From contig QCGO01000004.1 of NCBI GenBank assembly GCA_003279855.1, forward strand, positions 107,908 through 171,907: a DNA stretch of 64,000 nt, read 5' to 3'. Below, one piece after another: positions 57,083 to 58,387 of this stretch (position 1 is the stretch's first letter; each line of letters begins with the position of its first letter). The translations under genes and the position numbers were made by a program. The notes under the pieces were generated by a model, which worked only from the letters and a program-made list of their open reading frames with translations, did not search any database and was not told the DNA's origin. The stretch is from Prochlorococcus sp. AG-388-E21. GTDB taxonomy: Bacteria; Cyanobacteriota; Cyanobacteriia; PCC-6307; Cyanobiaceae.

Positions 57083-58387
57083 GTGATTAAGAGTATTAAT
57101 AAAGATTTTTTTTATAAGTTACCCCCTTTTGTTTTTATAAGTTTTATTAGTTTTTTTAGTGTTGTTAATGCTGCAATGCAGCTTTTCGTAAAAACGATAA
57201 CGGGAAAAACTATAACCCTTGATGTGGAAGCGAACGATACTATTCAAAGTGTCAAGGTAAAAATACAAGATAAAGAAGGAATAGCTCCAGACAAACAAAG
57301 CTTGACCTTTGCTGGTAAAAAACTTGAGGATATTAGAACTTTAAGCGACTACAACATTCAAGAAGAATCGATATTAAATTTAGTTTTAAGCACCACTCTC
57401 AGCACGGAATGGGTGCAACCTTATGCGGCGATGCAAAGCGTTGGCTTGGGATCTATTAAAAATAATAGAGATTTAGTATTGGCAAAAGCTGGCAAATGCG
57501 ATAACTCAGGATGGGTAATTGAAAATACTGATTATTGCGTTTATACCAATGTAAACAACACAATTGCCTCGGTTAACGGAAATAACAGTTACGGATCATA
57601 TGATTATGCAAACTTTAATACCTCAATAAATTTTGAGAAAACTATTAATGATAAATGGAAAGCTGGGATTGCTTATGGCGTTGGGTCCTCTAATTTAGAT
57701 AACTTCAACTTCTCTAGTACAACAGCAAGTTTAAGTTCTACAAATACCCATTACTCAATTTATGGTGTTAAAAAAGTAAATGATAAATTCATCCTCAAAG
57801 GAATAATTGGGGGATCCGACTTTGATTACAAAGGTATTAGAACTTATTCAACCACCTCAGCATCATCTGCATACGATACTGATGGATATACGGCAGAAAT
57901 AAATGGTATTTGGGATATAAAAAAGATTATCAAAAATATGAAAACTCCAATCCGTTTTAAACCATCAGTTGGTGTTGCTTATGCAGCTCATACTCAAGAT
58001 GGATTTAGTGAATCTGGAAGTGGAGATTTAATAACACTTGAAGCTAATCAAGCAGAATCTCTTCTCTTTAAAACAGGAATTAGTGTAGATAAACAAATCC
58101 TTATGGAAGGAGGAAAATGGTTATTAGTTCCATTAATCTCCTTGAACTATGAAATGGATACTTCTGCTGACAATAATAATAGAGGTCTTAAAGGAGGATT
58201 AACAGAAAGCTCTGATGCAACTACTTTGGTTTCTGCTAAAACATTTGGTAAGCATAATGGCTCTGTAAAAGTTGGAACAGATTTTGTATTAACCAAAGAC
58301 TTTATGCTTAATTTAAATGCCGAATATGGATTAGGAGGAGGAGGAAATGAGCAGTCTTATGGAGGTGGTTTTAAGTGGCAATTTTAA
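57083..58387 (+). CDS. Signal peptide - ubiquitin - outer-membrane beta-barrel fusion
   Basis: 434 residues, GTG start. A signal peptide (1-30, cleavage after VNA) places the ubiquitin fold (32-103) at the mature N-terminus. By hand, 54 of 72 residues match human ubiquitin, including MQLFVKT, TGKTIT, KIQDKEGI and RTLSDYNIQ. Lys6, 11, 27, 29, 33 and 48 are kept; Lys63 is Glu, Ile44 is Thr, and the RLRGG tail is absent. A linker with Cys139/Cys152 leads to a ~270-residue autotransporter-like barrel ending KWQF. The ubiquitin part would face outside or lie in the barrel mouth. No E1/E2-like gene is nearby. Confidence 0.85.
   Translation: MIKSINKDFFYKLPPFVFISFISFFSVVNAAMQLFVKTITGKTITLDVEANDTIQSVKVKIQDKEGIAPDKQSLTFAGKKLEDIRTLSDYNIQEESILNLVLSTTLSTEWVQPYAAMQSVGLGSIKNNRDLVLAKAGKCDNSGWVIENTDYCVYTNVNNTIASVNGNNSYGSYDYANFNTSINFEKTINDKWKAGIAYGVGSSNLDNFNFSSTTASLSSTNTHYSIYGVKKVNDKFILKGIIGGSDFDYKGIRTYSTTSASSAYDTDGYTAEINGIWDIKKIIKNMKTPIRFKPSVGVAYAAHTQDGFSESGSGDLITLEANQAESLLFKTGISVDKQILMEGGKWLLVPLISLNYEMDTSADNNNRGLKGGLTESSDATTLVSAKTFGKHNGSVKVGTDFVLTKDFMLNLNAEYGLGGGGNEQSYGGGFKWQF

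Follow-up and report, generated by a model that had tools for sequence, protein, structure and literature searches.

A ubiquitin domain predicted to be displayed on an autotransporter barrel in Prochlorococcus, with counterparts behind signal-like segments in several phyla

Ubiquitin is the textbook protein tag of eukaryotes, and a ubiquitin gene in a marine cyanobacterium raises the question of what the domain might do where the chemistry of tagging is gone. Such a gene lies at 57083..58387 of a 64,000-nucleotide stretch of DNA (hereafter the window) from Prochlorococcus sp. AG-388-E21 (assembly GCA_003279855.1, contig QCGO01000004.1, positions 107,908 to 171,907 of the forward strand), where one reading frame encodes a signal-like segment followed by ubiquitin and an autotransporter barrel. 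A reasonably probable answer, drawn from sequence comparison and a predicted model, is that the barrel displays ubiquitin on the surface of this abundant ocean photosynthesiser as an exchangeable binding head, not as a protein tag. The parts of the gene are as follows.

57083..58387, + strand: whole gene (signal segment, ubiquitin, autotransporter barrel), 434 amino acids, GTG start; from Pfam and homologues
57083..57175, + strand: signal-peptide-like segment, residues 1-31; called by eye, with codon conservation against genomes G010 and G037
57176..57391, + strand: ubiquitin domain, residues 32-103; 54 of 72 residues identical to human
57392..57409, + strand: joint of head and barrel, at which blastn similarity of the DNA to siblings bearing other heads begins
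57404..57484, + strand: 27-residue helix, residues 108-134, the expected autotransporter pore helix; from the predicted model and the range of the NalP/EstA/EspP alignment
57533..58381, + strand: 12-stranded outer-membrane barrel, residues 151-433; protein C-terminus ...KWQF

Domain architecture and predicted topology

An earlier sequence-only reading of this DNA had recognized a ubiquitin fold and an autotransporter-like barrel in one frame, and Pfam matches both: residues 34-104 match ubiquitin (E 2.4e-23) and residues 157-413 the Autotransporter beta-domain (E 1.2e-26). Its hand count of 54 identities to human ubiquitin over 72 residues is also correct, as judged from an alignment that included ubiquitin from the PDB. 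The domain has the sequence and the beta-grasp fold of the family (PF00240), and its identity to human ubiquitin is the lowest among 51 family rows, in which siblings reach 68. Ser stands at residue 72, after which the frame reads TTLSTEW into the barrel (TTLSTEWVQPYAAMQ); RLRGG is therefore lost, in agreement with the earlier view that this tail is replaced and that conjugation in the usual way is impossible, and the protein lacks the free C-terminal Gly-Gly required for it. None of the 51 rows keeps RLRGG and six keep RLRG. Substitutions in the window ubiquitin include L8I, R42S, I44T, K63E, and H68N. The E2 family PF00179 had no match in the same genome, but control genomes likewise gave none, and no family among the anti-phage defence models of PADLOC-DB was matched by the window protein at E 0.01.

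The C-terminal part has the 12-strand translocator barrel of type Va autotransporters together with the helix that precedes it. Residues 108-134 are helical in the predicted model, and the translocators of NalP, EstA, and EspP align from this helix onward (the NalP alignment begins at model residue 109), with barrel identities to solved autotransporter barrels of only 12-16%. A short linker alone separates ubiquitin from the pore helix, which makes ubiquitin the whole head of the protein. Residues 1-31 end in ...FFSVVNAA directly before ubiquitin Met1. Their hydrophobic stretch and AxA-like end were recognized by eye, not by a trained predictor, and after cleavage of the AxA type Met1 would still be preceded by a single Ala. 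The codons of this segment are conserved, with a nonsynonymous difference per site (pN) of 0.013 and 0.040 against the relatives G010 and G037. In the proposed mechanism the signal-like segment would direct the protein across the inner membrane, with cleavage at ubiquitin Met1 or one residue earlier; the outer membrane would take up the barrel; and ubiquitin would exit through the pore and stay tethered by helix 108-134.

Head exchange and ubiquitin types in Prochlorococcus

The sequence-only reading had proposed looking for the same fusion in relatives, naming an assembly chimera or a lack of homologues as what could undo it. The window protein is matched at E 0.001 in 23 of 266 genomes of the genus. 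Barrel-scale matches (E 2.8e-29 or better) occur at 26 loci in 21 genomes, six of these loci carrying ubiquitin, and the complete fusion is found in 6 of the 266 genomes, the same six that are picked by the ubiquitin profile by itself. Carriers include the isolate MIT 9314 (G010 = L116), whose homologue is 96% identical to the window gene, as well as scB243_495L20 (G037 = L051), AG-418-O03 (G095 = L055), AH-287-J03 (G258 = L052), and AG-347-E23 (G178 = L130). A protein search adds homologues, both Pfam domains being present in 55 of 120 proteins among the matches listed, mostly on contigs of 1-3 kb. An assembly chimera is ruled out because the full fusion is present in six of these genomes, with the protein-search homologues besides, and eukaryotic contamination of the window gene was rejected.

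By sequence comparison the Prochlorococcus barrel takes many heads, and ubiquitin has been exchanged between barrels. A paralogue in the same genome (L002) has a barrel 78% identical to that of the window protein and a head unrelated to ubiquitin. The heads of ten scanned sibling proteins comprise SBBP repeats (two), F5/8-type-C-like domains (two), ubiquitin (one, P0092), and segments not recognized by Pfam (five). With siblings bearing other heads, DNA similarity begins at 57392-57409, immediately past ubiquitin; with the ubiquitin-bearing distant relatives G178, G258, and G095 it begins at 57144, 57157, and 57172, while ubiquitin itself begins at 57176. Synonymous differences are discordant between ubiquitin and barrel (0.75/0.24 for window-G095, 0.11/0.44 for G095-G178, and 0.26/0.50 for window-G258). 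A barrel tree was built with 82 members (28 bearing ubiquitin, 54 not), thinned from 165 rows that exclude barrels of odd length or without the joint motif (G033, G099, G005, G128, and G264 among them); on it the ubiquitin label switches at least 17 times, and starred branches force seven of these switches. In P0092 a splice is visible, ubiquitin preceding another head piece. Three consecutive barrel paralogues of 503, 564, and 764 amino acids with differing heads were also seen at locus L046 (G182 contig C18, 15204-21426). Over seven pairs with ubiquitin synonymous difference per site (pS) of at most 0.31, pN/pS ranges from 0.24 to 0.41 in ubiquitin and from 0.20 to 0.47 in the barrel (rounded values); the Prochlorococcus ubiquitin is, on these estimates, under selection, evolving about like the barrel and not frozen as in eukaryotes.

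Three types account for nearly all of the 42 distinct Prochlorococcus ubiquitins: 11 have N20/Q24 (type I, that of the window), 22 have D16/Q28 (type II), and 8 have G19/T20 (type III), the remaining one being window-like and outside the three. Each type was compared through one representative (P0054 for I, a composite for II, P0077 for III). The nearest eukaryote-type and nearest other bacterial ubiquitins match at 67 (P0029, P0003) and 65 of 72 residues for type I, at 70 (P0166, P0126) and 69 for type II, and at 62 (four tied) and 62 for type III. Because synonymous sites between types I and II are saturated (0.71-0.84 in eight pairs) and their nearest eukaryote-type ubiquitins differ, at least two captures by Prochlorococcus are indicated; a third is likely, and other bacteria are a possible source. 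The N20 and Q24 combination is absent from all 68 rows of other bacteria; among 123 eukaryote-type rows, two (P0029, P0162) have it, and the best match of the window ubiquitin itself to any eukaryote-type row is 56 of 72. P0003, P0029, and P0162 are eukaryote-type polyubiquitins with an extra Ala or Thr before their units. T22S was considered as a bacterial signature and rejected, as it is also found in 26 of 166 units of non-fusion proteins.

The surroundings of the gene look like a variable island. The gene is 96% identical in G010, yet similarity to that genome stops at 56850 and 58441, scattered repeat copies aside, and G095 carries window positions 58487-61076 at 96% but on the opposite side of its own gene copy. 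Adjacent genes are MauE-like, DUF411, DUF3721, and weakly PepSY-like; no neighbour is common to all six ubiquitin loci, and a promoter scan gave fewer sites than shuffled sequence. Two elements flank the gene.

56781..57006, + strand: repeated intergenic element 5' of the gene; eight matching pieces in the genome, itself included
58441..58506, + strand: 22-base unit present three times head to tail, 3' of the gene; two copies identical, the third 68%
34345-34397, 46366-46509, 50843-51051, 56781-57006, 61067-61336, 63597-63647: pieces of the intergenic element (window positions)

In a search of the whole genome the eight pieces of the intergenic element form about six sites, all within some 29 kb of contig C4 (142252-171554, window 34345-63647). 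Copies also occur elsewhere in the genus, and island genes might recombine at this element.

Ubiquitin behind signal-like segments in other phyla

Ubiquitin word patterns run against GTDB species genomes gave at least 590 stretches, 370 relatives among them, and the best 80 were kept. By a crude rule, a hydrophobic signal-like stretch lies at most 30 residues upstream of ubiquitin in 72 of the 80 loci, and in 63 of these 72 the -1 and -3 residues are compatible with a cut exactly at ubiquitin residue 1; the window type is not counted here, since a cut at its AxA-like site keeps one Ala before ubiquitin. All 67 of the loci from outside Prochlorococcus match ubiquitin in Pfam, and among the best 25 of 47 families in these proteins are autotransporter (20), dockerin (6), fn3 (5), SLH (4), Por_Secre_tail (3), and IPTL-CTERM (2). 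Ten members picked by hand, whose record titles place them among Verrucomicrobia-, Proteobacteria-, Planctomycetes-, and Chlorobi-group bacteria, all combine ubiquitin with an autotransporter domain; phylum assignments of class members follow metagenome-bin titles that may be wrong. Members on finished replicons include one on the complete chromosome of Pseudomonas protegens FD6 (L103; barrel match partial, E 2.7e-7) and one on the complete, mobilizable plasmid pRUMAL01 of Ruminococcus albus 7 (L180), annotated only as 'ubiquitin family protein'. The neighbours of the latter are small hypothetical genes, with a dockerin protein close by.

RLRGG is retained at 7 of the 72 signal-bearing loci, and four end at or near the ubiquitin terminus. 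L078, L085, L118, and the viral-collection contig L131 consist of a signal-like segment and a complete ubiquitin with RLRGG, followed by a stop, and appear to be exported-type ubiquitins that would retain the conjugation tail. Contamination was rejected for most of the 80 loci, given the upstream signal-like segment and codon use matching the locus, and is likely for some of the eight loci lacking such a segment, one of which (L053) is cut by a contig end 12 residues upstream. At L029 (G594 contig C120, from a cyanobacterial assembly in about 240 contigs) a ubiquitin that keeps RLRGG is fused to a protease-like frame; this is probably eukaryotic contamination. Annotated phages gave no match; IMG/VR gave 11 loci, some with signal-like segments. 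In the IMG/VR contigs L134, L135, L136, L139, and L140, which may be host DNA, such a segment precedes ubiquitin.

Since word patterns favour near-eukaryotic forms, sampling with the Pfam profile was added, counting the central genome of each group. Profile matches occur in 11 of 288 genomes in the phylum of a Chthoniobacter-titled genome, in 6 of 148 in the family of the Ruminococcus albus genome (one, L158, not ubiquitin by eye), and in 2 of 397 in the phylum of a Methylotenera-titled genome (Pseudomonadota), where the other match is weak; ubiquitin is rare across Pseudomonadota at large. In the window phylum there are 5 in 386: the window genome, L030, G594, and two that are not ubiquitin. 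L030 (G266), another exported-type ubiquitin from a different family, has a signal, ubiquitin, and an unrelated C-terminal part. Two genomes of the Chthoniobacter-titled phylum have two distinct adjoining signal-ubiquitin genes about 1 kb apart (L159/L169 and L162/L171). L030 and the Chthoniobacter-phylum and Ruminococcus-family loci, without the central genomes' copies and after a score cut that L158 and L167 fell below, make up 17 distinct domains. A signal-like stretch lies upstream in all 17, and Ala, Gly, or Ser immediately precedes residue 1 in 16, L165 being one residue off. In L161, L168, and L170 ubiquitin Met1 is lost and the signal/ubiquitin joint is retained, and the placement is therefore not a mere relic of an old start codon.

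At the level of sequence, ubiquitin appears in several phyla as the first domain past a signal-like segment, followed in many cases by a surface-anchor or export domain. Because predicted extracytoplasmic exposure is the common factor, presentation of ubiquitin to the outside would be the selected trait, and the recurring placement points to a little-noticed role outside bacterial cells. The balance tips slightly towards a broader proposal of a second, extracellular bacterial ubiquitin world, in which protist ubiquitin would have been captured repeatedly and wired as first domain to the export route of each lineage (autotransporter barrel, type IX secretion system tail, S-layer domain, dockerin), with at least two and probably three captures in Prochlorococcus, traded there between barrels as a surface head. 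Neither this recurrence nor the place of ubiquitin as one of many interchangeable heads figured in the sequence-only reading.

That reading had taken the near-eukaryotic identity to suggest fairly recent acquisition, which is not borne out. Over the 72 signal-bearing ubiquitins (5 from Prochlorococcus; 2556 pairs) median pS is saturated at 0.91 against a pN of 0.11, and third-position guanine-plus-cytosine content follows that of the locus (r 0.90). The saturation speaks for residence and constraint, not for a single origin, because separate captures from different eukaryotes would saturate too. The phylogeny it had proposed was no help in finding a source: the ubiquitin tree is without resolution (7 starred of 228 branches), and no donor is named for that reason.

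Mean entropy of the I44 face is 0.85 in Prochlorococcus, 0.66 in other bacteria, and 0.43 in eukaryote-type rows, and that of R42 is 1.38, 1.18, and 0.07. The comparison is indicative, its rows being related by descent and the faces and the exposed and buried positions being our own assignments. It suggests a relaxed I44 face in Prochlorococcus and other bacteria relative to eukaryote-type ubiquitin, which fits the demands of conjugation enzymes being gone. A conserved F4 face, quieter than I44 in bacteria, was also considered; the same contrast holds in eukaryote-type rows once these are filtered for intact rows (15 of the 17 profile-sampled domains entered this comparison), and for this reason relaxation of the I44 face alone is claimed.

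Alternative readings and known systems

Several observations weigh against surface display as a binding head. The usual recognition face is altered in the window ubiquitin (I44T, L8I, R42S, H68N), as the sequence-only reading had noted of the Ile44 patch, and any partner therefore need not be a ubiquitin receptor. The pore helix contains IKNNRDL, whose Asn-Asn pair resembles the EspP-type self-cleavage site, and the head might be released; the second Asn is not conserved in every sibling. The signal-segment call rests on a crude hydrophobicity rule. Residues intervene between the likely cut and ubiquitin in seven or more of the 72 loci (L063, L074, L077, L098, L107, L115, and L118), and at least 32 of the 67 non-Prochlorococcus proteins match none of five counted anchor or export families.

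Among the alternatives, antagonism is unlikely and survives best: surface ubiquitin would act against related bacteria, either when cells touch or once it is released, by analogy with the secreted BfUbb of Bacteroides fragilis. BfUbb has a like layout, in which the signal is removed exactly at residue 1 and the terminal glycine is missing, and inhibits strains of its own species (PMC5705921, PMC3352274). A patchy distribution among strains (6 of 266) would suit a competition gene, and the missing common neighbour is no objection, because BfUbb is suggested by its authors to need no immunity protein (PMC5705921). Against this, a barrel anchors the window protein while BfUbb is free, and the sibling heads are unrelated, some being beta-propeller repeats or F5/8-type-C-like, more in the manner of a set of binding heads. 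BfUbb was reportedly found later to target a peptidyl-prolyl isomerase, a report that the literature search did not find.

Mimicry directed at eukaryotes is also doubtful. Proteins of a grazer or host would recognize the exposed ubiquitin, and uptake or digestion would be altered; the near-eukaryotic sequence, I44 being present in 40 of the 51 sibling rows, and the position of types I and II nearest to eukaryote-type ubiquitins, with bacterial ones close behind, agree with it. The relaxation of the I44 face in bacteria and its alteration in the window ubiquitin do not, and as known ubiquitin receptors are mostly cytosolic, a surface ubiquitin would miss them.

Less probable still is a cap for export or stability, an inert, fast-folding, protease-resistant first domain that would aid export or survival of the part that follows. 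Ubiquitin does come first in proteins with highly varied downstream parts, and positions taken to be buried are conserved above most of the surface. In the window protein there is nothing to protect, since ubiquitin is the whole head with a short linker to the pore helix; other heads substitute for ubiquitin and do not follow it (P0092 being the sole exception seen). Many positions taken to be exposed (Q2, K6, K11, T12, T14, K33, E34, D52, D58, N60, E64) do not vary in the 51 rows, which also tells against a cap. That ubiquitin stays in the periplasm as a docking domain beside the barrel is very improbable, for while the display topology comes from homology and a predicted model alone, a head before a helix and a 12-strand translocator aligning with NalP, EstA, and EspP is the layout of an exported passenger.

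The literature searched, which covered few subscription journals, had nothing on the fusion described here or on secreted ubiquitins as a class spanning phyla. BfUbb would pass from a curiosity to one member of a wider class. Such proteins offer a natural experiment on which ubiquitin faces stay constrained without E1, E2, and E3, and the question of what extracellular ubiquitin binds is approachable in a named isolate, MIT 9314.

In classical type Va autotransporters (NalP, EstA, AaaA, AIDA-I) the head is a beta-helix or an esterase, whereas in the window protein it is a 72-residue ubiquitin. Eukaryotic ubiquitin fusions share the sequence and fold over residues 1-72 and the N-terminal position of ubiquitin; the window protein differs from eukaryotic ubiquitin in its predicted export, in the absence of Gly-Gly, and in a relaxed I44 face. 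In BfUbb, ubiquitin residue 1 directly follows the signal, as it does in the window protein bar one Ala past the likely cut. BfUbb is a free, soluble toxin of 76 residues, whereas the window protein is a fusion with a barrel, belongs to Prochlorococcus, and has a swapping history of its own (PMC3352274, PMC5705921).
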